A stretch of 64,000 nucleotides of DNA. Source: a virus. The stretch spans positions 62,001-126,000 of IMG/VR virus record IMGVR_UViG_3300048008_000449. One strand, given 5' to 3'. This document shows positions 12,755-55,989 of this stretch, one piece after another. How positions within the stretch are numbered: position 1 is the stretch's first letter; each line of letters opens with the position of its first letter. Below the pieces are notes generated by a model, which saw only the letters and a program-made list of their open reading frames with translations, was not told the DNA's origin and ran no database searches. Both the position numbers and the translations under genes were made by a program.

Positions 12755-14598
12755 TTCTTTTTTCCTGCCTTCATGTTAGCACACCAGTGATACATTTTAG
12801 CTTTCTCACCGCTGGCTTTTTTTGCTTTGGCTCTTAGTTCTGTTACGCTACCGTTACAACTAGCACCACTACGTTTTACACGCCCTGGTCTGCTTTTGCC
12901 TTTTACTTTACCGTCTGCAAAGTTTTCTTCTACTGGTTCTTTATTGTCTACTGTTTGTGCCAATTTAGAAATTGTATCTCCAACTTCTATATTCTTATGT
13001 TGTATTCCAACACCCCCTGCATTTTGCCACTTGTTAATATTTTCTCCAAAATCATCAATTAATACATTTGAAGTTCCATCAGATTGTTTAGCGTATGCGG
13101 CTTTGTTGTGGTCAATAATAATTTTTGCTGGTGGGAACATACCTAAATGCTTTTTAATCCATTCACGCTTCTGTGGCTCTGAATTTGGATCTCCTGGAAG
13201 AGGTGCACTTAATATATTATATTTTCCTTTAAACTGCTTAATTGCGTTTAATAGATTTTTTGCATTACTTGTCATTGGTAAATTAATCCAAAAGTCATCT
13301 GTATCTTTGATTTTTTGTAATGCTTTGTTAACATCTGGAATATTTTTCCAATGTTTAACTCCCATCATTTTATTCCATACTCCAAAGAAGTCTGCTAATA
13401 CTCCATCCATGTCTACGTATATTTCTGATTTAGGTCCTACATCTTCAAGTATACTTTGAATATCTTCACCTAATAAATCTTGTTTAGTTGCTTTGAAATT
13501 GCTTTGCTTCCATTGTTGCTTTAGTGTATTTAATGTTTTACCAATTTCTGGTCCTTGAGGTACACCTTTAGCAATTAAGTCAGCACCGTTTACAGGAAAT
13601 TCTGGTACTGATGTAACCATAGCATGATCAGCCATTTTCTTTTGATCTTGTAATTCTGCTAGTGCTGATATTTTTTCTTTAGCTATACCATCAGCAATCA
13701 TATCTTCCACTTTCTTTTTATCAAGTTTATTATCTTTATTTTGAGATAAAAAGTTTAATAAATCAGCTTCTGTGTTTTTCATCTTCCAACGTTTTGCAAT
13801 GTCTACACTATTATTTAATTGTGCTAATACTATAATTGGATTACTATTATCTTTTACTGTGTTTAAATTATCTACATTAAGTCCTATTACTTGTGCTGCA
13901 CCTGTGTCTTTTATTGTTGCTAATATATTTGCAACGTTTTGTCCTGAAAGTATTTTGCCCATTTCTGACCAAATTCTTTCTGCACTTATTTGTGATAGTC
14001 CTTTTACATTAGAACTAATAGCTTCTAGTGTTTCTTTGTCCCAAGTAGGAGTTGATAATCTTCCTTGGAAACGGAAGTAACGTAATATACGTAAATAATC
14101 TTCTTGAATTCTATCTGCTGGATTTCCTACAAACTTACTTACTTTATCTTGTAAGTCGTCCATACCACCAAAGTAATCATGTATTTCGCCATCTAAATCC
14201 ATACTCATAGCGTTGTATGTTAAGTCTCTGCGTTTAGCATCTTCTTCCCAACTACGTACAAATTCTACCTTAGCATGTCTACCATCAGTTTCTTCATCTG
14301 ATCTTAATGTTGTAATTTCGTAAGGTTCGTTATTAATAACGGCTGTTATAGTTCCATGTTCTATACCGGTTGGTATATGTTTGATCATTGCTCTGTCAAA
14401 CATTTTTTGCATTTCTTGTGGAGTAGCATCAGTAGCTAAGTCAATATCTTTTGGTGATTTACCAAGTGCAACATCTCTAACTGCTCCGCCAACAATTCTT
14501 ATTTCAAAATTATGTCTTGCGAAGATACTGCCTAATTCTTTAACATCAGGTGATATTATACTTGTATCCTTGACTTCAGTTACTTCAAATATTTTCAT
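12751..14598 (-). CDS. CCA/poly(A)-type nucleotidyltransferase fused to a HAD nucleotidase-like domain
   Basis: 615 residues. Residues 1-10 (MKIFEVTEVK) are capsid-targeting-like. Residues about 30-330 are a class II tRNA nucleotidyltransferase/poly(A) polymerase: IVGGAVRD at 35-42, D51-I-D53, and the RDLTYNAM and RRFRFQGR-type helices after it. Residues about 390-530 are a HAD hydrolase (YVDMDGVLADFF). Residues about 565-615 match a small module (GASCNGSVTELRAKAKK.. HWCANMKAGKK, DUF5872-like) seen on many marine phage proteins. It could repair or tail RNAs on entry; that role is inference. Confidence 0.85.
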   Translation of the reverse strand: MKIFEVTEVKDTSIISPDVKELGSIFARHNFEIRIVGGAVRDVALGKSPKDIDLATDATPQEMQKMFDRAMIKHIPTGIEHGTITAVINNEPYEITTLRSDEETDGRHAKVEFVRSWEEDAKRRDLTYNAMSMDLDGEIHDYFGGMDDLQDKVSKFVGNPADRIQEDYLRILRYFRFQGRLSTPTWDKETLEAISSNVKGLSQISAERIWSEMGKILSGQNVANILATIKDTGAAQVIGLNVDNLNTVKDNSNPIIVLAQLNNSVDIAKRWKMKNTEADLLNFLSQNKDNKLDKKKVEDMIADGIAKEKISALAELQDQKKMADHAMVTSVPEFPVNGADLIAKGVPQGPEIGKTLNTLKQQWKQSNFKATKQDLLGEDIQSILEDVGPKSEIYVDMDGVLADFFGVWNKMMGVKHWKNIPDVNKALQKIKDTDDFWINLPMTSNAKNLLNAIKQFKGKYNILSAPLPGDPNSEPQKREWIKKHLGMFPPAKIIIDHNKAAYAKQSDGTSNVLIDDFGENINKWQNAGGVGIQHKNIEVGDTISKLAQTVDNKEPVEENFADGKVKGKSRPGRVKRSGASCNGSVTELRAKAKKASGEKAKMYHWCANMKAGKKK

Positions 14599-14606
14599 TG
14601 GTCATA

Positions 14607-15980
14607 CTACCAAGCTCTGCACGACCAATAACGTGCTTTTGTCTTAGGTCCTGGATTATCACAATTATGTCTTGCTCTAAAGCTCTTACGTCTTGCTGGA
14701 TTAGACTTTTTAATTTTCATAGTCTTCTCGCCTTTTGATTTAGCACTTGAACCGCCGTGTCCGAAGTTTACTTTCTTAACGTTTCCAGTCTTAGGGTCCT
14801 TGACATATACTTTAAACTTTTTAACGTCACCTCTTGTTGGTTTGTTTAGTTTAACTGTTCGTCCTTGATATTCCGCTTCAGTAAGTTCTTCTAATCCGCC
14901 TGGTACATAACTTTGAAATAGTGATTTAAAGTTTGTTTGAAATCTTGCACCATCTGAGCCAGCTCCGCCAAGTCTTGCAAGTCTGCCAGCTGTTTTGCCT
15001 TTACCTTTTTTAGGTTTTGCTGCTGGTGGCTTGTTTGGTGCTTTTGGTTTTGCCACTGGTGGTGCTTTTGGTTTTGCCACTGGTGGTGCTTTAACTGGAG
15101 TTTTGATAACTGGTTGTTTTGCCACTGGTGGTGATTTAACTGGAGTTTTTACAACCGGTTTAGCAATCTTGCCTGCTGGTGGTTGTTTAACAGCTGGTGG
15201 TGATTTTTTAACAGGTGGTTTATCTAAAATTTTAGGAGCCTTTGGTACTTTAGGCATTGCAGGCATTTTAGGTGGACCATCTATTTTACCAATAACCGGA
15301 GCCTTTGTTGCTGACGGATCTTTTGGTTTCACTACTTTACCTTTGTCTACTGCTAATTTAGGTTTAGATTTAAATGGAGTCTTTGGCGCTTTTGGTGCCA
15401 AATCAGCTATCTGTGGATTTTTTATTTTTGGAGTATCTACAACTTTTAATTCTGGTTTAACTTTTACAGGAGCATCTGCTTTAACTTTTGGAGTTAGATC
15501 TACTTTAGGTTCTTCGGCTTTTTTAGCTAATGACTTAGCGGCATCTGTTCCTGCGTCAACTACATCATCTGCGGCTGCGGCGCCTGCGGAAAATATCTTC
15601 TTGCCACCTTTCCATATAAACTTAGCACCTTTAACTGCGGATTTAGCAACTGCTCCACCTACGATAGTTAATGCTACGTCAGTTCCTACTCTAGCGGCTA
15701 ATTGTTCTTTACTAATTTTGCCATCTTTGTATTCTTTACCTGACTTCCATGTATCATAAGCAGTCCATGCCGCACCTGCGGCCCATATTCCTGCTGGTAT
15801 TAATGGTAATAGTTCTGTTAAATATTGTTGGCCTTTTTCGTCCATTTCAACAACAATACCGTCATCTAAATGTTCTACTACTCTTGACTCAACTAAGATA
15901 TCACCAAATTCAAAACCAACGATATCGCCGGCTTCTGGTTGATCTGATTGTGTTTCTGTAAATAAGTTGTGTACTCTCAT
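14607..15980 (-). CDS. Lys/Pro/Ala-rich late protein with capsid-targeting-like start and a hydrophobic segment
   Basis: 457 residues. The start is MRVHNLFTETQ (F-T-E at 7-9). Residues 15-55 form a module (GDIVGFEFGDILVESRVVEHL) seen in other marine phage proteins. Residues 58-76 are hydrophobic, as is a second stretch near 104-115. Residues about 150-345 are low-complexity KAPPVAKPKAP-type repeats. The C-terminus (about 385-457) is a Cys-containing module ending RHNCDNPG..RYWSCRAW, also widespread in T4-like marine phages. Lipid interaction plus high positive charge suggests a DNA-associated, ejected protein; this is inference. Confidence 0.72.
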   Translation of the reverse strand: MRVHNLFTETQSDQPEAGDIVGFEFGDILVESRVVEHLDDGIVVEMDEKGQQYLTELLPLIPAGIWAAGAAWTAYDTWKSGKEYKDGKISKEQLAARVGTDVALTIVGGAVAKSAVKGAKFIWKGGKKIFSAGAAAADDVVDAGTDAAKSLAKKAEEPKVDLTPKVKADAPVKVKPELKVVDTPKIKNPQIADLAPKAPKTPFKSKPKLAVDKGKVVKPKDPSATKAPVIGKIDGPPKMPAMPKVPKAPKILDKPPVKKSPPAVKQPPAGKIAKPVVKTPVKSPPVAKQPVIKTPVKAPPVAKPKAPPVAKPKAPNKPPAAKPKKGKGKTAGRLARLGGAGSDGARFQTNFKSLFQSYVPGGLEELTEAEYQGRTVKLNKPTRGDVKKFKVYVKDPKTGNVKKVNFGHGGSSAKSKGEKTMKIKKSNPARRKSFRARHNCDNPGPKTKARYWSCRAW

Positions 15981-16002
15981 TTTGTAAATCTCCTGTTACT
16001 TA

Positions 16003-16009
16003 TATTTAT
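16003..16009 (-). promoter_or_regulatory. T4-type late promoter (GATAAATATAA)
   Basis: ATAAATA followed by a short leader with AGGAGA before the ATG at 15980. It is the probable promoter for the run of capsid-targeting-like genes from 15980 down to about 12.7 kb. Confidence 0.7.
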
Positions 16010-16027
16010 CAAATAACAGAAGTTAAA

Positions 16028-16300
16028 TTACAATATAAACAATTGTATAAAAGCCCAACCATTCATTAGTGTAAACCAACAACATAGTACTATAGCACTA
16101 CTACCACGTCTATATGTGCTAAAGACTGCTAACATACTACCAATTAAGTATAAAGGTATAAAAATTGTTGTAGCTGGGTCTAAAATAGTAAAACTAAGTA
16201 TAGCACTTGCTATAATAAGAACTGTAGTTTCAACTATTTCTGCATAAAATGCTGTTCTATCTGTTTTATAACTTTTTTTAAAAAACTCAATTATTTTCAT
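16028..16300 (-). CDS. Small membrane protein
   Basis: 90 residues from the ATG at 16300 (MKIIEFFKKS), which has GAGGCAACAC upstream; the reading frame continues a little further upstream only through a TTG. Two or three hydrophobic segments follow (VETTVLIIASAILSFTIL, IFIPLYLIGSMLAVF, WAFIQLFIL). It overlaps the end of uvdE by 14 bases. No family was recognised. Confidence 0.65.
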   Translation of the reverse strand: MKIIEFFKKSYKTDRTAFYAEIVETTVLIIASAILSFTILDPATTIFIPLYLIGSMLAVFSTYRRGSSAIVLCCWFTLMNGWAFIQLFIL

Positions 16301-17315
16301 GTGTTGCCTCTTCAAATGGAATACTTGCTAGATTCTTACTCTTAGCTTCTACCATAATGTCAAAATCGTTACGGAAAGTGCCTGCCCATTTGTTAACGGC
16401 TGTATTCCACATAGTATCACTATGTGCTCTCAGTTTTGCTTTTTTGTAACCTTGTTCAATAAGTTTTTCATAGTCGGGCTTAACATCTGTTGCATGCCCT
16501 TGTAATAGATCTTTACGACTAACACTATAATGCATAGCAGGACGCACACCACGCCAACTATCAATGACACGTTTAATACGGTCATCGCTTGGAGTAATAT
16601 ATTCTCCGGCGCTATGTACCCAGTGATGGTGTATGTCGACAACTAGTGCTACTTCTTTCTCAAGTTCAAGTGAGGCATCGAGACCCCATGCGTTTTCGTC
16701 GTTTTCAATAGTAATACAGTTTCTTGCCTCTGGAGACAATCGTTGAAGTGCGACTTTAATACCGGCTGGACCTTGTCTACCGGAGATGTGGACGTTACAC
16801 TTGAAGTCTTGCCACTTCTTACCGTAGCCCATCCACCTGATGATATCCGCATGATATTCAAACTCCTCTATACTTCGTTCTACAATTTCTGGTGTATCAC
16901 TTGCTAGTACAACGAACTGACCTGGATGCATACTAAGACGCACACCTAGTTGTCGTGCAAGTTCACCTGCTCTACCATAATATTTAGCCGCATACTGTCT
17001 TATCTCTGGACGTTTCCAAAAGTAACGCCAGTCTGGATGTGTTGCGGCAGGAAGTTGGTTGCTACCTAATCTAACCATACGTTGATGTTCTGGTAAATTA
17101 CCTACATATTCAACAAGGTTGTAAACTGCTTGTGTGTTATGAACCATAATATCATATAGACGCTGTTCAGCCACATCACGTGTTTGATTGTTAAGCCAAC
17201 GAATAGTTGTAGATTTCTCTGTTAATGGACGCTGAATTTCTTCTAGCAATTTCTTTTTTTGTGTCTGATCAGGATGCAAATACTTGCATGCAAAACCTAC
17301 CTTACCTAATGTCAT
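16287..17315 (-). CDS. uvsE: UV damage endonuclease UvdE (UvsE)
   Basis: 342 residues, close to the family length. It has a TIM-barrel pattern of conserved metal ligands: HPGQF (about 164-168), NVHISG, ENDE, DIHHHW. It nicks DNA 5' to UV photoproducts and other lesions, starting an alternative excision repair. It has its own consensus sigma70 promoter, so it is probably expressed early in infection, as expected for repair of sunlight damage in a surface-ocean phage. Confidence 0.93.
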   Translation of the reverse strand: MTLGKVGFACKYLHPDQTQKKKLLEEIQRPLTEKSTTIRWLNNQTRDVAEQRLYDIMVHNTQAVYNLVEYVGNLPEHQRMVRLGSNQLPAATHPDWRYFWKRPEIRQYAAKYYGRAGELARQLGVRLSMHPGQFVVLASDTPEIVERSIEEFEYHADIIRWMGYGKKWQDFKCNVHISGRQGPAGIKVALQRLSPEARNCITIENDENAWGLDASLELEKEVALVVDIHHHWVHSAGEYITPSDDRIKRVIDSWRGVRPAMHYSVSRKDLLQGHATDVKPDYEKLIEQGYKKAKLRAHSDTMWNTAVNKWAGTFRNDFDIMVEAKSKNLASIPFEEATHENN

Positions 17316-25028: not shown

Positions 25029-25633
25029 CAATTTCGCAATTCTTTATACTGGATAACTGTTTCAATTCTAATATTAAGATCATCGCTATGTGATAGTTTA
25101 AACAACATCATTGTTTCTTCACTGTTGCAAAACACAATTGGAACACTTTCTCTATTTCTATGCATAAAGTATCTAATGTGTACTATACGTCTATCATGGA
25201 AATCAAAGTTATCATATATCCATTTTATAGTAGCATTGTCTTTTTCTAGTGTACCAACACCATACTTTGGCCAACTTATTAGTTTATGTTTGTAGTTGTT
25301 ATACCATAACTTATCACGTATAACAACACTTCTATCTTTTTCGTATAATAGTTTTTTATGTGTATCACTTATTGGTTCGTGTATTTTATCTATTTTTCTA
25401 TATAAGAAATCATCAGATTTTATCTGATCAACCATATCAACGTCAGATGTATAAACTGCTAAATTATATGTTGTTTCTGATTTTTTTGTTTTAACACCAC
25501 GCCATATTGTTTGACCATCTAATCCTATTTTAGGATAATTGAAAACGTAGTTAAACGGCAGGTCTAGAAATTTAATACATGTATCAAAGTATCTGTAATA
25601 TAATGACTGCGATGGAAATACATTATTTTCCAT
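25028..25633 (-). CDS. Hypothetical protein downstream of clpA
   Basis: 201 residues from the ATG at 25633, which overlaps the clpA stop; the frame extends upstream into clpA without a better start. The protein is rich in Tyr, Lys and Asp (FPSQSLYYRYFDTCIKFLD; HIRYFMHRNRES). There is no membrane segment or known motif. It is probably co-translated with clpA. Confidence 0.65.
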   Translation of the reverse strand: MENNVFPSQSLYYRYFDTCIKFLDLPFNYVFNYPKIGLDGQTIWRGVKTKKSETTYNLAVYTSDVDMVDQIKSDDFLYRKIDKIHEPISDTHKKLLYEKDRSVVIRDKLWYNNYKHKLISWPKYGVGTLEKDNATIKWIYDNFDFHDRRIVHIRYFMHRNRESVPIVFCNSEETMMLFKLSHSDDLNIRIETVIQYKELRN

Positions 25634-27887
25634 TAATAAGTAACTTGTCTTTTTGCCAATCAAGCTCCAATGTAAACTCGCCTTCATTATTAAGTAGATA
25701 TTTTGCTAATGGTAATTTTACTGATTCGTTGATTACTCGTTGTAGTGGTCTTGCACCCATTGTAGGATCGTACCCTTTATCTTCTAGCATGGCTAATAAT
25801 CCTGGTCCCCACTGTAATACAATATTTCTACCTTCAACATATGATTCTAATTCTCCTAAGAACTTAATAACAATACGTTTCATATCATTTTGCTCTAGTG
25901 CGTTAAATTTAACAATTCCATCTAATCTATTTCTAAACTCTGGAGCAAAGTAATTGTTTACTGCATCATCAACTGCTTTTGCATTAAATGTTTCTTCGTT
26001 GAATCCAATTGTAGCAATTGCCGCATCTTTTGCACCTAGGTTACTAGTCATAATAATAATTGCATTTTTAGCACTTACTACTTTACCTGTACTGCTCGTA
26101 AGTGTACCTTCATCAAGTAAACTTAACAATACACTCATTAAGTCAGGGTGTGCTTTTTCTACTTCATCTAATAACAATAAGCAATTTGGATTATCTTCTA
26201 GATGACTTATTAGTAAGCCATCTCCTGCTTTACCATCACCATGTCCTACATAGCCTGGAGGTGATCCAATTAGTTTTGATACTGTATGACGTTCTTGATA
26301 TTCTGCCATATCATAACGTACAAGTTTCATACTCATTGCTTGTGCTAGACGTTTAGCAAGTTCTGTTTTACCAACACCTGTTGGACCCGTAAACAAATAA
26401 CTAGCAACAGGTTTAGTAGGATCTTTTAATCCAGCCATGCTAACTGTAATACTATCTACTACACGATCAACTGCTGGTTGTTGTCCAAATACTGTACTTT
26501 CTAAAAATGTTTTAACTTCTGTATGTTTTGTTACAGTCTGTTTATCTTCTACGTTACCTAAATGTTCTTTTGGTATTCCTGTAAGTCTTGCTACCTCTGC
26601 TCTAATTTCTTCTTCGCCTATAATAGTTAAGCGATCTGCTTCTGGTAAAATTCTATTAAATGCACATGCTCTATCAAGTATATCAAATGCTTTGTCTGGT
26701 AATTTCTTGTTAAAGATATATTGGTCACTTAGTTCAACTGCTAATTCTGCGGCATCTTCAGTAATACTAACATTGTGATAATGTTCATAAGATATCATTG
26801 TACCTCTAACTACTTCTTTTGCCTCAATTATATTAGGCTCATCACATACAACTTTTGTAAACCTACGTGCCAATGCACTTTCTTTTTCAAATACTTTTCT
26901 ATATTCTTCGTCTGTTGTAGCACCAATAACTTTTAGTTTTCCACTACTCAATGCAGGCTTTAACATATTACCAGCATCCATAGTACCATTTGTACTACCT
27001 GCTCCAATAATTTGATGTATCTCATCAATGAATAAAATAATGTTAGGCTCTTTAATTAATGCTTCGCCTAATTGTTTCATACGTTCTTCAAAGTCACCTC
27101 TATATTTGGTACCAGCAACTAACTTAGTCATATCTAATTCCCATACAACCTTGTCTTTAATAATGTCTGGAACGTTACCTTCTACAATAAGTTTTGCTAA
27201 TCCTTGTACAACTGCTGTTTTACCAACACCACTTCCACCTGTTAAAATAGCATTAGATTTTTTCTTACGTGCTACTGTTTGTACTAGGTCTTTTAATTCT
27301 TTTCTACGGCCAATTAAATCATCATAATCTTGGCTTTCTTCATTTAAATTATTACAAAATTGTTTTAATACTTCACGTGGAGTTACTGCTCTCTGACCGC
27401 CTGGTCCTGGCATACCTGCAGCCATACCATCTACTGGTCCAAAGATTTGTTCATCTTTCATTGCGGCTGTATCTTGCATCCAACTCATTACTTTGTTTTT
27501 GTTTAGGCCCAATTGTTCTGCATATTTAGATGACACACTATGTTCTTCACCTAGTATACTCAATACTAAGTCAAGTTGGTTAATTACTTTTTTGCCTTGA
27601 AACAATGCTTGTGTTAACGCACGATTAAATACACGTTCTAACATTTGTGTCTTAGCAGGATTTGGTTCTTCTTTAGTATTTTTTACTAATTCTTTACATT
27701 CTTTTTCTAAGTATTCAATTAATGCAATTTGCAAACTTTCTGCATCTGCATTAATTTCGTAACACATTGCTATTACATGTGGGTCGTCTAGAATCACTGC
27801 GGCTAAGTGTTCTATTGTAACATATTCGTGTTTGAACTTCTTAGCTAAGTTAATTGCTGTTATTACTATTTTTTCAATGTCTGTCAT
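25623..27887 (-). CDS. clpA: ClpA, AAA+ unfoldase of the ClpAP protease
   Basis: 754 residues, the normal ClpA length. It has an N domain (1-145), Walker A of D1 at 217-224 (GGSGVGKT), Walker B FIDEIH near 287 and Walker A of D2 at 501-508 (GPTGVGKT). There is no ClpB middle domain, so this is ClpA, not a disaggregase. The ClpP-docking loop IGF is at 627-629, so it can in principle work with phage or host ClpP. ClpA degrades SsrA-tagged and, through ClpS, N-degron proteins. It overlaps the J-protein gene by 14 bases. Confidence 0.93.
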   Translation of the reverse strand: MTDIEKIVITAINLAKKFKHEYVTIEHLAAVILDDPHVIAMCYEINADAESLQIALIEYLEKECKELVKNTKEEPNPAKTQMLERVFNRALTQALFQGKKVINQLDLVLSILGEEHSVSSKYAEQLGLNKNKVMSWMQDTAAMKDEQIFGPVDGMAAGMPGPGGQRAVTPREVLKQFCNNLNEESQDYDDLIGRRKELKDLVQTVARKKKSNAILTGGSGVGKTAVVQGLAKLIVEGNVPDIIKDKVVWELDMTKLVAGTKYRGDFEERMKQLGEALIKEPNIILFIDEIHQIIGAGSTNGTMDAGNMLKPALSSGKLKVIGATTDEEYRKVFEKESALARRFTKVVCDEPNIIEAKEVVRGTMISYEHYHNVSITEDAAELAVELSDQYIFNKKLPDKAFDILDRACAFNRILPEADRLTIIGEEEIRAEVARLTGIPKEHLGNVEDKQTVTKHTEVKTFLESTVFGQQPAVDRVVDSITVSMAGLKDPTKPVASYLFTGPTGVGKTELAKRLAQAMSMKLVRYDMAEYQERHTVSKLIGSPPGYVGHGDGKAGDGLLISHLEDNPNCLLLLDEVEKAHPDLMSVLLSLLDEGTLTSSTGKVVSAKNAIIIMTSNLGAKDAAIATIGFNEETFNAKAVDDAVNNYFAPEFRNRLDGIVKFNALEQNDMKRIVIKFLGELESYVEGRNIVLQWGPGLLAMLEDKGYDPTMGARPLQRVINESVKLPLAKYLLNNEGEFTLELDWQKDKLLINGK

Positions 27888-31216: not shown

Positions 31217-31798
31217 TTAAACGTTGACAACAATGTCAACTATCTGTGCCCAGTTGCCTACTCGCACAACACCGTCTACCGTATCTTGCTTCTCATTATG
31301 AGTATGATTAATGAGCAAACTTTTTAGACCTAACTTAGCTCCTAAGTTAGCATTTGCTGTTTTGTCCTCAATCCAATACAATCCACTATCTTTGTAAGGT
31401 TCTAGTGCATCATCTTTATCTGCACCTGTATCTAAACAAATAACTTCTTCAAATACATTTTTACCAAAAATAGCTTCTAAATTTGTTTTTCTTAGTTTAC
31501 CAGCTTTTTCATCTAAGCTAAGAGAAGTAATACAATGAAATTTGTATCCTGCTTCTACCAAATGTGCAACACCGCTTCTAGCATCTCTAAAAGCTGGCAA
31601 GTACTTTACCCATGCACAATTATTAAATTCTTTTACAAGTTTTTTACATTTAAACTTACTTAATCCGTATGCTACTTCCATTTCGTATACGTCATTTACT
31701 TTTTTAGTATAACCTTTTTTAGCCATCCACTTATTAAAGTCGACTTCCCAATCAAGCAATACTCCGTCTGCGTCAGTCAAAACTATCTTATTATTCAT
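31217..31798 (-). CDS. HAD-superfamily phosphatase
   Basis: 193 residues. DADGVLLDW at 8-16 is HAD motif I; SLSLDEK follows as motif II region and EDKTANANLG is motif IV. Related phage and bacterial proteins are 5'-nucleotidase-like. It ends base-to-base against phoH on the other strand. A strong sigma70 promoter at 31831-31859 drives it. Confidence 0.82.
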   Translation of the reverse strand: MNNKIVLTDADGVLLDWEVDFNKWMAKKGYTKKVNDVYEMEVAYGLSKFKCKKLVKEFNNCAWVKYLPAFRDARSGVAHLVEAGYKFHCITSLSLDEKAGKLRKTNLEAIFGKNVFEEVICLDTGADKDDALEPYKDSGLYWIEDKTANANLGAKLGLKSLLINHTHNEKQDTVDGVVRVGNWAQIVDIVVNV

Positions 31799-31830
31799 AA
31801 CTTCTCTACTTTGTTTCTGATTATGTTTAT

Positions 31831-31859
31831 ATTATAAGACATCTTGGCTGAGAAGTCAA
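31831..31859 (-). promoter_or_regulatory. Sigma70 promoter with AAGACATCTT dyad
   Basis: TTGACT (31854-31859), 17-base spacer, TATAAT (31831-31836). The dyad AAGACATCTT lies at 31836-31845, touching the -10. Confidence 0.85.
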
Positions 31860-31894
31860 CCACTAATTGTATTTTTATGTGAATTATTTTATAG

Positions 31895-32203
31895 CTACAT
31901 TGCCATTAGATCGTCAAAATTCCATACCATTTTTGCGGCTCCGCCATACTGTCCAGGACCAACGCCTTTTTGATATGGTGGCTGAGGAAGTGGACCTGTC
32001 CATATCCAATTATCATGCTCTTGTGGATAATACTGCATACGTTCTTCTTTGTGTAAAAACTCAGGTTTTAGTCCATGCTTTTCTGTCATATTGAACATTT
32101 CAATATCAGGCATAAACTTCATCTTTACTTGCATTGCTTCAAAGTCAGTTAACACAACACAATCATTTTTACCATTGATTGTTACACTCCATACTTGATC
32201 CAT
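31895..32203 (-). CDS. Hypothetical protein
   Basis: 102 residues. The N-terminal half is a small alpha/beta unit (WSVTINGKNDCVVLTDFEAMQVKMKF); the C-terminal half is rich in Trp, Tyr, Pro and Gly. It abuts the preceding gene (shared base at 32203). No family was recognised. Confidence 0.65.
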   Translation of the reverse strand: MDQVWSVTINGKNDCVVLTDFEAMQVKMKFMPDIEMFNMTEKHGLKPEFLHKEERMQYYPQEHDNWIWTGPLPQPPYQKGVGPGQYGGAAKMVWNFDDLMAM

Positions 32204-32707: not shown

Positions 32708-33441
32708 TCGGGAATTTTAATGCCATCAAACAGTATATCAGAATAGGTTGTTACTAGTTCTCTCCAGTTTGGCAATGGCGGGGAATTTATAATATCGCAT
32801 AATCTATAATATTCCATAGGTTTGTGCCTAAAGATTTCTCCAATATCAATTTTGTGTATTGCAATACCTTTGGCTTCAAATTCCATTTTATAATGGATAT
32901 ATTCTTCGTAATGATCTTTAAACTTTAATGGCTGTGCAAGATGAAATGTATCTGGAGCAATTGTTCTTTCATATGGTAAATTATGATCAGTTCCTACACA
33001 TATGGCAAACATATCTGCTAGTTCTTCTTGATCACAATCAAGTACAATATGTGTTGTTACATTAGTATCTTTATTATGTATAATATCAAATCTAGACAAT
33101 GCATAATTTAAGTAATGATATGGATTAAGTCTAAACACAAGTTTTGTAAAATCACCTACTCCTTGTCTTAGTGCCGCTTCAATTTGGTCATCAAATGGAT
33201 GTACTTCATTTATCCACTTATCACCAAATTTATTTTCACAATGAAATGTTTCAGGTCTCCAACTTCTACCTTGATGTCCTATCATATCTGTACCAGTAGG
33301 ATTTTCTTTTCTCATATCCATGTCAGGTACTTGTGCAAATCCTTCATGTCTTTGAATTAACCAAGAGATAAATTCACCTGGTAATCCTGAAGGATGTATT
33401 ATTGAAAATGCTTCTGGTTTTGGTCTTTCTAAAATAGGCAT
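32704..33441 (-). CDS. Protein of unknown function, possibly sulfotransferase-like
   Basis: 245 residues, soluble. The start contains FSIIHPSGLPGEFISWLIQRH, reminiscent of the phosphosulfate-binding loop of sulfotransferases, but the rest does not give a clear match. It overlaps the upstream radical-SAM gene by 13 bases, so it likely belongs to the same pathway as the two radical-SAM paralogues. The function is not established. Confidence 0.6.
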   Translation of the reverse strand: MPILERPKPEAFSIIHPSGLPGEFISWLIQRHEGFAQVPDMDMRKENPTGTDMIGHQGRSWRPETFHCENKFGDKWINEVHPFDDQIEAALRQGVGDFTKLVFRLNPYHYLNYALSRFDIIHNKDTNVTTHIVLDCDQEELADMFAICVGTDHNLPYERTIAPDTFHLAQPLKFKDHYEEYIHYKMEFEAKGIAIHKIDIGEIFRHKPMEYYRLCDIINSPPLPNWRELVTTYSDILFDGIKIPD

Positions 33442-34721
33442 GGTTGTTTTGGTCCGTAAATTATTTCTGCTAAATCTGGATTATAATCATACAAGTATAC
33501 ATCTCTAAATTTATCCTGTTCACGTACAAGTTCTTGGAATACAGATAAATGATGTTCTTTTGTATCTAATGCTTTTCTCATATCATTAAGTGTTCTAATA
33601 TTATGTGTGTCTTTATTATGATATCTTAGTTCTGCTTTGTTAATTATATTGTGTGCATGTTTTTTATAAGAATCTGGTAAGTTTCCAGATCTTAAATGTG
33701 CTGGAAATACTACTAGTCTTAAATTACTATCAGCTTTATGATCATATACAAAATCTAAAAAGTCTAGTGTATTATCATAATTAAATATTTGGTAACTAGC
33801 ATTAATTTGAACACCAAACCATTTGTTTTCTTGTGCAAACTTAGATAGCTTACCACATTGTTCTTCCATTTGGCTCCAAGTAAATACACCGTTACTACGC
33901 ATGTATTCAAACATTGGACCAGCGGCATCAATACTAATATCTAATGTAAGTTTTTTTAGTTTATGAAATAGTCCTAATTTTTCTACATTTACTTTTGATC
34001 CATTTGTAGTAATAACCATTTTAATTTTTTCTGGGTATCCGTGTTCTTCAATAAGTTCCATTAACCTATATGGACTATCATCCATAAATGGTTCTCCACC
34101 TGTCATCCAAATACTTCTGATACCTTTTAGTACTGTAGGATTCTTTTCTAAATATGGAATAATACTGTTAAAGTTTTTTGGGTTAGACCATTGAAACTTT
34201 TTATATTCTCTAGGAAACTTACTGTTCATGTGTTTAGCTTCAGGTATTAAACTGTTGCTGTAATTTGGACTACACATTCTACATTTAAAGTTACACACAT
34301 TACTAAAGTTTACAAATAAATGGCTTATGTCATTTCCTACTAACTTTGGAGTACGATATGGTTCAGGGTTGCCTAACTGATCCATCATCTTCTTTCCAAG
34401 CCAATTCATACGTTGACTTTTTTGTCCGTTCTTTTCTCTATTCAAACAGTTGGTACATCCATAAGTATCCCATTTACCGTCAAGCATGTTTTGACGTAAT
34501 GTTTGCATTTCTTTACTGTCGTGGCTCTCGCCCATGTCGTCATCACTCATCATGCAACGACTTACAACGCCTGAAGGATGCCAACTAATAGTATTAAATG
34601 GAACTGGACACCAACTTTTACTGTGTAGGTTTTTCCAGTTATCATCTTCAACTACTTTTGTTACAATATCCTTGGCAGGTATAATAAATTTATCTTTGTT
34701 TATGTCTGTTGGATTATTCAT
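33429..34721 (-). CDS. Twitch-type radical SAM protein
   Basis: 430 residues. The core motif is C143-x3-C147-x2-C150 (CNFKCRMC) and WMTGGEPFM the GGE motif. The N-terminal auxiliary cysteines are C38, C56, C89 and C92. It is clearly a duplicate of the next gene upstream, sharing HSKSWCPVPFNTISWHPSG-like and SIDAAGPMFEYMRS-like blocks. It overlaps that gene by eight bases. A two-enzyme heteromeric pair or sequential modifications are possible. Confidence 0.9.
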   Translation of the reverse strand: MNNPTDINKDKFIIPAKDIVTKVVEDDNWKNLHSKSWCPVPFNTISWHPSGVVSRCMMSDDDMGESHDSKEMQTLRQNMLDGKWDTYGCTNCLNREKNGQKSQRMNWLGKKMMDQLGNPEPYRTPKLVGNDISHLFVNFSNVCNFKCRMCSPNYSNSLIPEAKHMNSKFPREYKKFQWSNPKNFNSIIPYLEKNPTVLKGIRSIWMTGGEPFMDDSPYRLMELIEEHGYPEKIKMVITTNGSKVNVEKLGLFHKLKKLTLDISIDAAGPMFEYMRSNGVFTWSQMEEQCGKLSKFAQENKWFGVQINASYQIFNYDNTLDFLDFVYDHKADSNLRLVVFPAHLRSGNLPDSYKKHAHNIINKAELRYHNKDTHNIRTLNDMRKALDTKEHHLSVFQELVREQDKFRDVYLYDYNPDLAEIIYGPKQPCLF

Positions 34722-35949
34722 TGTATATAAAGTTACCTAAAATGCTATGATAATCATGCATTGTTTTATTCCTATATTTATCTTGTGCTTTTGTGAAGGC
34801 TTTAAACTTGTCTATCATATCTTGATTTGCTTGTGGTGCTTGTAAGTTTTTAAGTACGTCATCAAAAGTTCTTTGAAATCTTGGATCATTAACTATCTTA
34901 TAGTCTTTAATTTTTTCATATTCCTTCATACGTATATCTGTTGGTAATACATTTAGTCTAAGGTGTTCAGGAAAAATTAACATCCTAGTATTATTTAGTG
35001 CACCTGCATCTACACACAATTCATTAAATTCTGTTACTGTATCAAAGTTGTATGCTTGTATGCTTGCATTGAAACACATGTTAAACCAACCATCATTTTG
35101 CTTCTTAAAATGTTTAAGGTCATCTATTAATGAACGCATTTGTTGCCATGTATATAATCCATCGCTACGCATATATTCAAACATGTTACTAGCCGCATCA
35201 ATACTTAAATCTAATTCAAACCATTTTAAGTTTTCAAACTTTTGTAACTTATCTAAATCTACTTTAGATCCATTTGTAGTAATAACAACATCCATATCCC
35301 AAGATTTATCATATTCGTTTAATATATCCATTAAATCAAAACAGTTGTCGTCCATAAATGGTTCGCCGCCTGTTATCCATATACTTGATAGACTATCTAA
35401 TTTCTCTGGATGTTCTCTTAGGTATGTATTAATAAAATTTCTATTTTTAATAATCTCTGGTTTTACTTTTCTTGCTAAACCAAGTGTATTTAAATGTTTA
35501 TGTTCAGGTATGAGACTATTACTATAACCTGGGCTACACATTCTACATTTAAAATTACAAATATTACTGTAATTTATAAACATATGATTAACAGGGTTTC
35601 CTGTTACTTTTGGATTCATATATCCATCTGTGTTTCTAAAATCGTCTGGATTACGTTGTAACCATTTTTGTCTTTGACTAATGTTGCCTTGTTCTTCTTT
35701 TTTAAGGCAGTTAATACAACCTTCTTTATCCCATACACCATTAAGCATATCAGTTCGAAGTTTTTGCATTTCTTTACTGTCGTAGTCTTCCCCCATCGGT
35801 ACATCGCTCATCATACAACGAGTTAATACACCGGTGGGGTGAAAACTTATAGCGTTGAAAGGTATTGGACACCACGCATTACCGTGGTCGACTTTAGTAT
35901 ACTCTTTGTATATACCTTGTCTTCTTTGTAAATCATTATCATTACTCAC
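34714..35949 (-). CDS. Twitch-type radical SAM protein, paralogue of the next gene
   Basis: 411 residues. The core motif is C131-x3-C135-x2-C138 (CNFKCRMC), with WITGGEPFM following. Auxiliary cysteines are C27, C45, C78 and C81. It is the first gene of a three-gene unit (two radical-SAM genes and the 32704 gene) joined by overlaps. It follows the endolysin by 24 bases. The substrate is unknown. Confidence 0.9.
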   Translation of the reverse strand: MSNDNDLQRRQGIYKEYTKVDHGNAWCPIPFNAISFHPTGVLTRCMMSDVPMGEDYDSKEMQKLRTDMLNGVWDKEGCINCLKKEEQGNISQRQKWLQRNPDDFRNTDGYMNPKVTGNPVNHMFINYSNICNFKCRMCSPGYSNSLIPEHKHLNTLGLARKVKPEIIKNRNFINTYLREHPEKLDSLSSIWITGGEPFMDDNCFDLMDILNEYDKSWDMDVVITTNGSKVDLDKLQKFENLKWFELDLSIDAASNMFEYMRSDGLYTWQQMRSLIDDLKHFKKQNDGWFNMCFNASIQAYNFDTVTEFNELCVDAGALNNTRMLIFPEHLRLNVLPTDIRMKEYEKIKDYKIVNDPRFQRTFDDVLKNLQAPQANQDMIDKFKAFTKAQDKYRNKTMHDYHSILGNFIYNE

Positions 35950-41997: not shown

Positions 41998-42594
41998 TTA
42001 GAACGATACAGTTAGTTTAACACCAACTTCACGATCAGTTTTGTCCCAATCGTTATTCATTGATTGCTTGATACCTGCTTTTAATGAAGTAGCATCAGTT
42101 AATCTCAAAGATGTACCAATTTCTGCAAATGGTGTATCTCTGTTGATGTCTGTATAATCACCTTCGATTGATTTTAGACCGTAGCCTAATTCACCGTATG
42201 GTGTAAAGTTAGCGATACTTGTTTTAACTCCAACTTTTGGTGTTAAATGTAATTCGCTTTTAGTAAAACTATCGCCCCAATTGTACTCAGCTTCACCTGT
42301 TACATATGCTGTTGCAAGTGTAGATTCTGCTGAACCCAACGGCATGGAAATAGTTTTACCAACAGATACATTATAGTCTCTGTTTGTACCGTTATCTGAT
42401 AACTGTACGCCTAGATCTAAAGAACCGTTAGTGTTATACACACTTACTGATCTTGTAGTATCGTTTGTTGATAATTCAACACCATAAACAGAGCCTTCAG
42501 CAGCCATTGTTAATGATGTATTATCATAATCGTCTGCGATAGCCGTAGACGAGATAAAGGCAGCCATGGCTGCTGTAATGATTAAATTTCTCAT
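41998..42594 (-). CDS. Outer-membrane beta-barrel protein
   Basis: 198 residues. Signal peptide MRNLIITAAMAAFISSTAIA, then alternating-residue strands (about eight) and a C-terminal ..EVGVKLTVSF with the terminal Phe typical of BAM-inserted barrels. Mature protein would sit in the host outer membrane. It might block superinfection by other phages, alter permeability or serve as a decoy receptor; this is inference. It lies directly downstream of the tmRNA. Confidence 0.8.
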   Translation of the reverse strand: MRNLIITAAMAAFISSTAIADDYDNTSLTMAAEGSVYGVELSTNDTTRSVSVYNTNGSLDLGVQLSDNGTNRDYNVSVGKTISMPLGSAESTLATAYVTGEAEYNWGDSFTKSELHLTPKVGVKTSIANFTPYGELGYGLKSIEGDYTDINRDTPFAEIGTSLRLTDATSLKAGIKQSMNNDWDKTDREVGVKLTVSF

Positions 42595-42616: not shown

Positions 42617-42930
42617 TGGTCCCATCTTCGTTAATGGAGGCACTTCTGTTGCCAGGTAGTACCCACCCCTACGTGCTTAGTTAAACTAAGCCGCTAATGC
42701 CATTTCTGGCGAATAATTGTCATTTGCAATTATAGTTTTTGTTCGCGGTAACGGCGCTTACATCCCGGTAACTCCACTCATCTATCCTAACAGTCGATCC
42801 TAGTTCAGCCCCATCAAAAACACACTTACAAGCAGTGATTCAATATCTCATCTATAAATGTGTTTATGGTGGAGCTGCTCGGTACTGCCCCGAGGTCCTG
42901 TCTAGTCGTCAAATCGCTTCAACGTTACAA
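42617..42930 (-). ncRNA. ssrA: Two-piece, circularly permuted tmRNA (alphaproteobacterial type)
   Basis: The acceptor piece comes first (about 42930-42867): T arm CTCGG-GGCAGTA-CCGAG, then CAGCTCC-A-CCA ending at 42867. After a roughly 54-base intervening segment the coding piece starts at 42812 with GGGGCTG, which pairs with CAGCTCC (one G-U) to form the acceptor stem. GGGGCTGAACTAGGATCGAC is the usual tmRNA 5' sequence. The coding piece contains a tag frame, ANDNYSPEMALAA-stop (42727-42686), followed by hairpins. This gene order is that of alphaproteobacterial two-piece tmRNA. The 3' limit near 42617 is approximate. It rescues stalled ribosomes and tags nascent peptides for Clp proteolysis, and needs SmpB, which is not in this window. 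Confidence 0.93.
42686..42727 (-). other. tmRNA tag reading frame, ANDNYSPEMALAA
   Basis: Thirteen codons from GCA (resume codon, 42727) to TAG (42686). The tag begins AND like many proteobacterial tags and ends ALAA, the part recognised by ClpX (LAA) and ClpA. A CTTAG/CTAAG hairpin spans the stop, as in many tmRNAs. Confidence 0.93.
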
Positions 42931-42934
42931 GTTA

Positions 42935-42965
42935 TATTTATACACTCTTGTTTATGTTTTGTCAA
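42935..42965 (-). promoter_or_regulatory. Dual sigma70 and T4-late promoter of the tmRNA
   Basis: TTGACA (42960-42965), 17-base spacer, TATAAA (42937-42942). The -10 reads TATAAATA, which is also the perfect T4 late consensus. The tmRNA could therefore be made throughout infection. Confidence 0.78.
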
Positions 42966-43458
42966 CCTTTTTAAAGACATATTCAAAATTTTGTGTATTT
43001 GGATTATGTTGTACTAATTTTGCACCATTGCTAATATGAAAATGTGTAGCCATTGGTGTAAGTGGAGAAAGTGTAACCAAACGTTCAATATCATTTTTAT
43101 CTTTATAATAATCTTTTAGTTTAGCTACAATTTCTCTGCCAGCTCCTTTTTTACGTGACCATACTGTGTATGCAACTGCTATACTAGCATCATCAAGTAA
43201 ATTAGCATTCTGGCTTATAATGTTTAGTTCTCTTTCACTTTGTGGAATATCGTTACAATATGCAATGCATATAATACCTTGTATCTCATCATTGGCTTTT
43301 AGACCAAATATTTTTCTACCAAATGATGTTCTAAATTCCATATCTAAATTAGGCCTTACTGGATCTTCAGAACAATCTATGTCAGTTAGTTCAACTAGCT
43401 CACTAGATGATACCCACTTAAAGAAGTTATCAATTGAATCTTTAATTACTTTCAACAA
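42952..43458 (-). CDS. GNAT-family N-acetyltransferase
   Basis: 168 residues. SIAVAYTVWSRKKGAGREIVAKLKDYYKDK is the acetyl-CoA motif A region, and THFHISNGAKLV the C-terminal part. Its last residues overlap the -35 of the tmRNA promoter. It follows the peroxiredoxin gene by six bases. The substrate is unknown. Confidence 0.75.
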   Translation of the reverse strand: MLKVIKDSIDNFFKWVSSSELVELTDIDCSEDPVRPNLDMEFRTSFGRKIFGLKANDEIQGIICIAYCNDIPQSERELNIISQNANLLDDASIAVAYTVWSRKKGAGREIVAKLKDYYKDKNDIERLVTLSPLTPMATHFHISNGAKLVQHNPNTQNFEYVFKKVDKT

Positions 43459-50383: not shown

Positions 50384-50905
50384 TTATATTTTCCCGGTTA
50401 CCCTGTTATTTTGTGATGATATCTGCTCGTACTCTACTTCTAATAAGTATGCAAACGTATTTAGCAACTCTTTTGCCATGTCTTGTTTACCACGTTCTCT
50501 ACCTCTTAATAAAACAGTAACCATTAGTTTATTATTTTTTTCCAAAAACTTACGAGCCATTCTGGCCTTTGTTTCTAAATCATGTGTATCAATATTTAGA
50601 CCCATGCGTATTTCTTTGGTCTCAACAACGCTCTCTCGTTGCTTTTTCTTTGCCAGTTTTTCTTTTTGTTTTAACGAGTACAAGTGCTTATTAAGATCAG
50701 TTATTTTGCATACAGGTGGTGTTGCTTTATCTGCAACTAGTATCAAATCTAACCCTAATGACCTGGCCTCTTTTAAAGCATCTGTTGTTGACATGATCTG
50801 GCTTTCCATATCATCACCTGATACCCTAATTTGTTTATGTCTTATCTTCTCGTTGGAAATAACAAAAGGTTTTTCCTCACGTCTTTTATAATTTCTATTC
50901 TGCAT
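50384..50905 (-). CDS. infC: Translation initiation factor IF-3
   Basis: 173 residues from the ATG at 50905, chosen for AAAGGTGACA; this is the normal bacterial length. N domain: VISNEKIRHKQIRVSG and DALKEARSLGLDLILVADKATPPVCKI; linker KQKEKLAKKKQ; C domain: KEIRMGLNIDTHDLETKARMARKFLEKNNKLMVTVLLRGRE. IF-3 checks start codons and fMet-tRNA and splits ribosomes. A complete IF-3 is rare in phages. Overlaps clpX by 11 bases. Confidence 0.95.
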   Translation of the reverse strand: MQNRNYKRREEKPFVISNEKIRHKQIRVSGDDMESQIMSTTDALKEARSLGLDLILVADKATPPVCKITDLNKHLYSLKQKEKLAKKKQRESVVETKEIRMGLNIDTHDLETKARMARKFLEKNNKLMVTVLLRGRERGKQDMAKELLNTFAYLLEVEYEQISSQNNRVTGKI

Positions 50906-52106
50906 TGTCACCTTTAATATATTGTGGCTGTGCGTTTCTAGAAATAACTTGTTCATTTATAATAATTTTTCGTATTCCTTGCTCGTATAATTCAGGTAAG
51001 TTATATTGTGTTTCTAATAATGAAGCATCTAATATCTTACGTAAACCTCTAGCTCCTATTTCTTCTTTAATTGCAATGTCTGCAACTTCTTCTAATGCTT
51101 TTATTGTAAACTCTATTTGTATTTTGTCAAGTAGAAAAAGCTCTTTTATTTGATCTACAATACTATCTGTGGGTTCAGTTAGTATTTTTACAAGATCGTT
51201 CTTATTTAAGGGGCTAAGGACGTTTACAGACGGTAATCTACCCACAAATTCGGGTATAAGTCCATATTTCACTAAATCACGTGTTTGTAAGTGCTTTTCC
51301 CACTGTTCTATATCGGTGTCTAAATCGTCGTTAAATCCTATCTTCGACTTACCTAGGCGATTAACCACAACATCTTGTAGACCTACAAAGGCTCCACCTA
51401 CTACAAATAGTATCTCACTGGTGTCAATATCTACTTTCTCCGGGTTATGTTGCGGTTTGTTCGGAACCGTTACTACTATACCTTCCATGAGCTTTAAAAG
51501 GCTCTGTTGGACACCTTCTCCAGATACGTCTCTACTCAAACTAACATAGTCATTACGTTTAGCTTTCTTATCAATTTCGTCAACATATATAATTCCATGT
51601 TGTGCTGATTCTATATCATAGTTAGCGGCTTGAAACAATTTGTGTATTAGTACTTCTGAGTCATCACCTGCATAACCGCTTTCAGTTATTGTTGTTGCAT
51701 CAGTTACTACCATTGGAACATTAAGCAATTTAGCAAGTGTTTGTGCCATTAGTGTTTTACCAGTTCCTGTAGGACCAGCAATTAATACATTACTTTTTTG
51801 TAGCTTGGTTTTTGTTTTAGAAGTTATTCTTTTATAGTGATTATATACTGCTACACTTAAAGTCTTTTTTGCATGATCTTGACTGATAACATTCTCATCT
51901 AAAAATTTATGAATTGCTCTTGGCGTTGGAAGAACTGTTTTCTTTTGCAATGCGTCAGATACTTTAACTTTGTCATTCTTAACTATACTATAACAAAATT
52001 CAACACACCCACTACAAATATGGATATTGTTTTCTCCTGCTAATAGTTTAGTTATTTGTGTAGTGTCTTTACCACAAAAATTACAATGAGGTAAATTACT
52101 TTTCAT
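50895..52106 (-). CDS. clpX: ClpX, AAA+ unfoldase of ClpXP
   Basis: 403 residues from the ATG at 52106. Zinc-binding domain CNFC..CSGC (C9, C12, C32, C35 counting one extra first residue), Walker A GPTGTGKT (112-119), Walker B IIYVDEID (173-180), pore loop SGYAGDD, and the ClpP-docking IGF (257-259). All elements of a working ClpX are present. It recognises the LAA end of ssrA tags. Coupled to infC downstream. Confidence 0.95.
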   Translation of the reverse strand: MKSNLPHCNFCGKDTTQITKLLAGENNIHICSGCVEFCYSIVKNDKVKVSDALQKKTVLPTPRAIHKFLDENVISQDHAKKTLSVAVYNHYKRITSKTKTKLQKSNVLIAGPTGTGKTLMAQTLAKLLNVPMVVTDATTITESGYAGDDSEVLIHKLFQAANYDIESAQHGIIYVDEIDKKAKRNDYVSLSRDVSGEGVQQSLLKLMEGIVVTVPNKPQHNPEKVDIDTSEILFVVGGAFVGLQDVVVNRLGKSKIGFNDDLDTDIEQWEKHLQTRDLVKYGLIPEFVGRLPSVNVLSPLNKNDLVKILTEPTDSIVDQIKELFLLDKIQIEFTIKALEEVADIAIKEEIGARGLRKILDASLLETQYNLPELYEQGIRKIIINEQVISRNAQPQYIKGDNAE

Positions 52107-52545
52107 CAAAATACTCTGGATTCATTTGCAACCTTACAAAATTATTAATATCATCTATAGAACGTACAACTAGGTTAGTTCCTGTAGCATTTATTAATTT
52201 TACAGTTTCCCTTCTCTTGTACTTATCACTATAAAATAGCACCGTATTCTCAGTTTTTTGTGATTTTAAAAGTGCCGCCATAATGTCTTCCCATGCACAA
52301 GTATCTACATCAACTATCATAAAGTCACATGTATTAGATACATTCCATACCCACGGTAATGTAGCTGACGTTGTTTTTTTATTTTGTACAAAAAATACTA
52401 CACTTGTAGCAATGTATTTTTCAAACAATTCTTTTATATCTGTTATTAATATTTCATTAGTGCTAGAAATACATATTCCTATTCCATGTTCCGTTAACAT
52501 CAAATCTGGAGCTGTTACAGTGTAACTATCATTATCAATTGTCAT
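52096..52545 (-). CDS. Conserved T4-like marine phage protein
   Basis: 149 residues, alpha/beta (TVTAPDLMLTEHGIGICISSTN; DFMIVDVDTCAWEDIMAAL). I recall similar proteins in T4-like cyanophages next to the long membrane coiled-coil protein. It overlaps clpX and the next upstream gene by 11 bases each. Function unknown. Confidence 0.7.
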   Translation of the reverse strand: MTIDNDSYTVTAPDLMLTEHGIGICISSTNEILITDIKELFEKYIATSVVFFVQNKKTTSATLPWVWNVSNTCDFMIVDVDTCAWEDIMAALLKSQKTENTVLFYSDKYKRRETVKLINATGTNLVVRSIDDINNFVRLQMNPEYFDEK

Positions 52546-55401: not shown

Positions 55402-55989
55402 TTATACTTTTCTTGTAACAACTTTGTCAGCCAAACCAAAATCTACTGCTTCTTGAGCAGACATAAAATTATCACGTTCCATTGCATCTTCTAGTTGAGC
55501 AAATGTTTTGCCAGCTGAATTATGATGCACATAAGCCTGTGTTAGTTGTTGCTTCATCTTAAGAATTTCTTTAACTTGAATTTCCATATCAGTTGCCTGT
55601 CCACCTGCACCACCGCTTGGTTGGTGAATCATTGTACGACTGTTAGGCAACACAAAACGTTTACCCGGTTCTCCTGCCATTGCAAGGAAACTGCCCATGC
55701 TACATGCTTGACCCATAACAATTGTACTTACTGGAGATTTAATAAATTGCATTGTATCATAGATTCCTAAGCCTGCTGTAACTACTCCGCCTGGGCTGTT
55801 AATATAAAAATTAATAGTTTCGCTACTATTTTGTGATTCTAAAAATAGCATTTGTGCAACAATTAAGTTTGCACTGTGATCATTAACATCACTTGTAAGC
55901 ATTACGATACGATCTTTTAGCAAACGACTATAAATGTCATATGCACGTTCGCCTCTGCCTGTACTTTCGATTACTGTTGGTATTATCAT
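55402..55989 (-). CDS. clpP: ClpP, serine peptidase of ClpXP/ClpAP
   Basis: 195 residues. Catalytic S97 (GQACSMGS), H122 ([10 protein letters not shown]) and D173 ([12 protein letters not shown]) are all present. The N-terminal [15 protein letters not shown] matches the gate region. It is a full-length, probably active ClpP; it should form a 14-mer, alone or mixed with host ClpP, and dock ClpX or ClpA through their IGF loops. AGGAGATATC precedes the ATG. Confidence 0.96.

Follow-up and report, generated by a model that had tools for sequence, protein, structure and literature searches.

A phage-encoded two-piece tmRNA in a large marine phage lineage that carries Clp proteases and a ClpX with altered loops

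Ribosome rescue is usually regarded as host housekeeping. The locus described here raises the question of whether a phage can bring a rescue RNA of its own into the infected cell and, if so, where the proteins tagged by that RNA would be sent. It lies in a stretch of 64,000 nucleotides (the window), which corresponds to positions 62001-126000 of a 204,772-base IMG/VR virus record. The record encodes a terminase large subunit, tail sheath, tail fibres, a head maturation protease, a T4-type DNA polymerase, UvsX and a phage SSB, together with a ribonucleotide reductase, and its terminase is 55.6% identical to that of the PA5oct-group jumbo phages. This gene content shows the record to be genuinely phage, a 205-kb fragment of a myophage. 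It may be part of a larger genome, because the same tmRNA neighbourhood occurs on a contig of 335 kb assigned to a Marinimicrobia MAG (L135, PBPT01000016.1), and in that MAG a terminase with 55% identity lies on a contig that is 292 kb or longer. Metabolic genes and tRNAs in the record could suggest a bacterial chromosome with a cellular tmRNA; the terminase with its PA5oct-group identity, the tail sheath and fibres, the head maturation protease, T4-type polymerase, UvsX and SSB in the same record make that reading extremely improbable, and the terminase, tail sheath, DNA polymerase and UvsX bear out the first-pass annotation, which had called the RNA phage-encoded. No rRNA was found by Rfam in the window, and no SmpB is encoded in the phage record; SmpB was also absent from all related records searched except Prevotella phage Lak-B2.

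Other genes of the window include a tRNA nucleotidyltransferase-like domain fused to a 5' nucleotidase domain (12751-14598, minus strand) and several radical SAM proteins arranged in pairs (5027-7400 and 33429-35949), two of them with SPASM domains. A tryptophan halogenase-like protein of the phage was observed at 15184-16389 of locus L128.

The tmRNA gene was detected by two independent approaches. The Rfam alpha_tmRNA model (RF01849) matched 42979-42633 on the minus strand with 123.4 bits (E 3.6e-33, curated cut-off 50 bits), which is the covariance search that the first-pass annotation had proposed as a check, and the tmRNA_permuted model (RF04321) matched 42928-42686 on the same strand with 111 bits (E 8.5e-21, curated cut-off 47 bits). 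Independently of Rfam, ARAGORN reported a permuted tmRNA (tmRNA*) with gene coordinates 42959-42595 and the tag ANDNYSPEMALAA. Together these matches confirm positions 42633-42928 of the minus strand, a strand assignment missing from the first-pass annotation, as a phage-encoded permuted two-piece tmRNA of the alphaproteobacterial type. A nucleotide search of phage records with the window tmRNA gave no matches.

Direct reading of the minus strand agrees with the features first seen by eye. The acceptor (tRNA-like) piece, also recognised by ARAGORN and Rfam, spans 42928-42867 and lies upstream of the coding piece; it contains the T arm CTCGG-GGCAGTA-CCGAG and the acceptor 3' strand CAGCTCC (42877-42871), and closes on an encoded CCA within the ACCA end at 42870-42867. 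An intervening segment of 54 nt (42866-42813), which contains no ORF, separates it from the coding piece (42812-42633, by direct reading and Rfam), which begins with the acceptor 5' strand GGGGCTG (42812-42806) and continues through a D-loop-like region to the tag frame. The boundaries at 42812 and 42867 given in the first-pass annotation are correct as far as the sequence can be read, and the acceptor stem GGGGCTG/CAGCTCC forms all seven of its seven pairs, among them the G3-U70 alanine determinant. The 13-codon tag frame was likewise recovered, at 42727-42686 (coding part 233-274 of the ARAGORN gene): a short frame with a resume alanine codon and an Ala-Ala end, reading ANDNYSPEMALAA followed by a stop. 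For the 3' end of the coding piece the position is approximate: 42633 by Rfam and 42595 by ARAGORN, whose call runs up to the start codon of the next gene. The two pieces were cofolded for relatives only, and the acceptor stem appeared in just some of these; the result was given no weight as evidence.

Immediately upstream of the acceptor piece, the minus strand carries the -10 element TATAAATA (42935-42942) and, 17 nt before it, the -35 element TTGACA (42960-42965). The arrangement TTGACA-N17/18-TATAAAT is kept among the 20 phage relatives compared, with TTGACA exact in 19/20, TATAAAT in 15/20 and CATAAAT in the remaining 5/20, although these promoter counts, like those for the neighbourhood, come from mutually related sequences and are not independent. 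The element reads as a conserved sigma-70-like promoter belonging to the tmRNA itself. It was missing from the list of the built-in promoter scan because that scan demands a T at the last -10 position. A T4-type late promoter, prompted by the upstream TATAAATA box, was considered and rejected: the motif is depleted, with 11 copies in the genome where permuted motifs average 45, and these copies show no concentration upstream of ORFs. On the upstream side the tmRNA is followed by a 168-aa ORF with no family match (42952-43458, minus strand), whose position is kept in many relatives, and on the downstream side by a beta-barrel outer-membrane-like protein (Phage_OMP, 41998-42594, minus strand), which is conserved beside the tmRNA.

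Relatives were gathered by a search with the ClpX of the window, and 42 related IMG/VR records were sampled. An alpha-type tmRNA was present in 24 of these 42 and also in the isolated Sinorhizobium phage Phosso. Linkage was counted in the 27 clade records that extend at least 12 kb beyond clpX: the tmRNA lies 7.6-14.5 kb downstream of clpX in 20/27 and upstream in 1/27. None was detected in the other 6/27 despite enough flank, so the tmRNA is not essential to the group; most tmRNA-free clade records simply stop too close to clpX. The recurring gene order is clpP, a 565-aa ORF, clpX, IMP dehydrogenase, a lipase, a redoxin, the 168-aa ORF, the tmRNA and the outer-membrane barrel, which AdoMet decarboxylase joins in the nearest relatives. 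The acceptor stem occurs as GGGGCTG/CAGCTCC, GGGGTCG/CGACTCC, GGGGTTG/CAACTCC and GGGGGTG/CACCTCC, all compensated, seven-paired and with G3-U70, one of the searches having itself demanded seven pairs. U70 was present in all 233 of the 233 loci compared, a count that is partly by construction, one search having demanded an acceptor strand ending in TCC.

The tags of relatives vary at their start (ANNNYAPAMALAA, ANDNYQPEMALAA, AEDNFAIAA and others) and end in A-L/I/M-A-A. The cellular tmRNAs of one marine order, reached via the MAG of locus L136, carry the tag ANDNEMALAA, with an intervening segment that measures 3-16 nt; the tag of the window phage equals this cellular tag with YSP inserted, and is in that respect distinct, as the first-pass annotation had suggested. 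Across 84,980 GTDB species genomes the motif ANDNYxPEMA was found on two contigs only, both phage-looking. One is L136 (PALK01000009.1, from a Rickettsiales MAG), which has ten ORFs over 8 kb in common with the window phage, and the other is L135, whose neighbourhood is also common with it. From this shared gene content both appear to be misbinned phages of the same kind, which would yield false tmRNA assignments for Marinimicrobia and Rickettsiales. Judged by these comparisons the tag is of a phage type, yet it ends like an ordinary degron. The suggestion that such an RNA might escape host control finds nothing in its favour, the tag ending in an ordinary ALAA with nothing that points to evasion of host proteolysis. 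Its use as a pointer to the host class was overstated: an alpha-type tmRNA is weak evidence of the host, because the methylophage Melnitz carries one and infects the gammaproteobacterial OM43 (PMC9004378).

What would happen to the tagged proteins depends on the Clp proteins, three of which are encoded in the window, all on the minus strand. The ClpP peptidase (55402-55989) has its catalytic Ser, His and Asp, a triad that aligns with that of E. coli ClpP, and scores 263.8 bits to PF00574 and 248.9 bits to the E. coli protein. A ClpA-like unfoldase (25623-27887) has the canonical pore loops KYRG and GYVG and an IGF-type ClpP-docking loop. The ClpX (50895-52109) scores 379 bits to a solved bacterial ClpX and contains the C4 zinc finger, Walker A and B motifs, the ClpB_D2-small domain and the IGF loop; its pore-1 loop reads GYAG and it is without the RKH loop. 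Next to it lies the translation initiation factor IF-3 (50384-50956, minus strand), a gene pair found also in Atu_ph07 and Phosso; the IF-3 ORF as listed overlaps clpX, and its true start is probably further in. A second ClpP-like protein (31433-32071 of the genome) was rejected as a member of the Clp set, being the head maturation protease. ClpX and ClpA matches in the Acinetobacter 'phage' MD-2021a were discarded, as they lie on bacterial contigs with the order trigger factor-clpP-clpX; the two records concerned (CAKLQF020000005.1 and CAKLQH020000005.1) hold a bacterial tig-clpP-clpX region and are probably bacterial though filed as phage.

The ClpX changes extend to the whole clade. Sequence comparison of 50 clade proteins (34 distinct; loci L137-L188) showed GYVG replaced by GYAG, T199S and loss of RKH in 50/50, the former RKH loop being three residues shorter in nearly all, with the Walker motifs and the ClpP-docking IGF loop kept in 50/50. 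All 33 of the 33 non-clade ClpX proteins compared, from other phages and E. coli, have GYVG and either RKH or RKN. Six residues of E. coli ClpX, Val154, Thr199, Arg228 and His230 among them, are critical for binding ssrA; specificity towards ssrA substrates falls in the R228A variant, and ssrA-tagged proteins are not degraded by human ClpX, whose sequence is different at these loops (PMC7652416). The argument rests on the loops jointly, because T199S alone has a mild effect, about fourfold on KM (PMC7652416). The phage protein is a ClpX by domain make-up that does not carry the standard degron-reading surface. By analogy with E. coli ClpX alone, in which these residues were mapped, it likely docks ClpP and does not read the ordinary ssrA tag; if so, tagged proteins would therefore probably be routed to host ClpXP or to phage ClpA-ClpP.

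We consider it probable that the locus is a working two-piece tmRNA of the phage, which acts in ribosome rescue and tagging and whose tagged fragments pass to one of these two proteases. The sequence and structure of the gene, the conservation of its promoter, its linkage to clpX and the ClpX loop changes point to such a role. The sigma-70-like promoter that closely precedes the acceptor piece would yield one precursor, and host tRNA-processing enzymes would cut it at 42867, behind the CCA, and at 42812, ahead of the coding piece. The two resulting RNAs would stay together through the acceptor stem and connecting helices. Charging, through G3-U70, would be the work of the host alanyl-tRNA synthetase, and delivery would be by SmpB, which is taken to come from the host because the phage record encodes none. 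During infection the charged RNA would free ribosomes that have stalled on broken mRNA and would add ANDNYSPEMALAA to the fragments, and ribosomes would thereby be kept available for a long, translation-heavy infection. The fragments with their Ala-Ala ends would most likely be degraded by host ClpXP or phage ClpA-ClpP, and the phage ClpX, with its changed loops, would probably handle other substrates. A wider proposal, which we regard as tentative and rather doubtful, is that in this clade the phage runs rescue and proteolysis as one set, with the tmRNA as one of its arms, and that tag reading no longer falls to ClpX. Blind to ssrA tags yet still docking ClpP, the phage ClpX would be freed for other substrates, and tagged fragments would be left to phage ClpA-ClpP or host ClpXP. 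If true, the phage would re-divide Clp proteolysis in the infected cell.

The same gene set can be read in other ways. With ClpP, ClpA and ClpX encoded alongside, and a host sigma-70-type promoter that would permit early expression, the tmRNA might mainly mark host proteins for destruction, or help to recycle amino acids, via partly phage-controlled proteases, rather than maintain the supply of ribosomes; selective tagging of host proteins was proposed by the authors of the Melnitz study (PMC9004378). We regard this as unlikely, since a tmRNA tags anything on a stalled ribosome and no selectivity device is visible, and since a phage ClpX without tag-reading loops is the opposite of a dedicated phage route from tag to ClpXP. 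Still less probable is that the RNA acts as a competitor or decoy, titrating host SmpB or displacing the host tmRNA so as to reprogramme or inhibit rescue. Such a role has been suggested for the tag-less tmRNA-like RNA of mycobacteriophage DS6A (PMC4131195, PMC11915505), and the phage tag does differ from the cellular tags found; a pure decoy, however, needs no tag, and relatives retain the tag frame in full, with its conserved Ala-Ala end.

The gene might also be a functionless passenger, a host tmRNA acquired by imprecise excision or as an attachment-site copy, given that tmRNA genes are common integration sites (PMC9004378). This we hold to be very improbable, as the promoter and neighbours are kept across relatives whose ClpX proteins are only 57-80% identical and the acceptor-stem changes are compensated. 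The reading as a working rescue RNA remains the one that we prefer.

The window tmRNA is not new in kind. A survey of 18,146 phage genomes found 53 two-piece tmRNAs among its tmRNA structures, 50 of them marine or aquatic, and phage two-piece tmRNAs such as that of Melnitz are already published (PMC9004378). The earlier idea that the phage supplies its own ribosome-rescue RNA holds insofar as the permuted tmRNA is phage-encoded, has a conserved promoter and bears a differing tag, but not as a novelty of kind. Melnitz and the pelagiphage Mosig (PMC9004378) resemble the window phage in being marine, in carrying an alpha-type permuted tmRNA with no need of lysogeny and with an early-type promoter just upstream, and in the proposed role of maintaining host translation. 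The Melnitz tmRNA gene has a glutamine riboswitch, whereas none was reported by Rfam in the window, and the window phage is a member of another lineage, a larger one that has ClpA, ClpP, ClpX and IF-3. The Sinorhizobium jumbo phages AP-J-162 (PMC11242549) and Phosso (PV764938.1) also combine a tmRNA with Clp genes including a clpX that adjoins IF-3, and the AP-J-162 paper ties ClpX to DNA replication, not to trans-translation (PMC11242549). In Phosso, unlike the window phage, a long distance separates the tmRNA (349.6-350.2 kb) from clpX (381-382 kb), the intervening segment has 410 nt and ClpX keeps GYVG and RKN. The permuted tmRNA of Phosso (349553-350242, L223) is unannotated, the deposited record being empty there.

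Bacillus phage G (JN638751.1) likewise has a tmRNA (PMC4131195) and adjacent clpP-clpX, but it gives no match to the alpha-type model and its ClpX keeps GYVG and RKH. The PA5oct-group jumbo phages (Wroclawvirus), which have the closest terminase, possess ClpA and ClpP; no alpha-type tmRNA was found in PA5oct. Alphaproteobacterial ssrA (RF01849) shares the permuted order, G3-U70 and an ANDN...ALAA tag with the phage gene, which differs from that of the one marine order in its longer intervening segment and in the inserted YSP. ClpX and ClpA of jumbo phages have been interpreted as translocases or assembly factors (PMC7824862). In the open-licence literature we found no report of tmRNA and Clp as a single phage pathway and no description of the ClpX loop changes.

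Intervening segments were surveyed at 214 permuted tmRNA loci, non-redundant and not part of the cellular set; at 84 of these the segment has at least 90 nt. Nested ORFs, defined as ATG ORFs with a Shine-Dalgarno-like sequence filling at least 60% of the segment, were present in 22 of the 84 long segments, where dinucleotide shuffles gave 0.63 on average and 3 at most. These ORFs, which lie in viral contigs related to the window phage, make up 14 families, and the loci include L028, L070, L382, L325, L023, L136, L239, L342 and L449. Several stop one base before the coding piece and several resemble small membrane proteins. In two pairs silent change greatly exceeds replacement change (0.64 against 0.13 and 0.66 against 0.22), and by this measure two families are under purifying selection. 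Among the contents of intervening segments, a tmRNA catalogue of 2025 names a tRNA and a repeat but no ORF (PMC11915505); with nested protein genes, the excised segment would have a use that apparently has not been reported before.

The lineage described here is one of large marine phages that keep their own rescue RNA with its promoter, together with IF-3 and Clp proteases, and in which exactly the tag-reading residues of ClpX have changed. It offers a directly testable case of a virus altering the destination of tagged proteins, and the ClpX proteins of the clade provide a natural set of pore-loop variants for studying degron choice.
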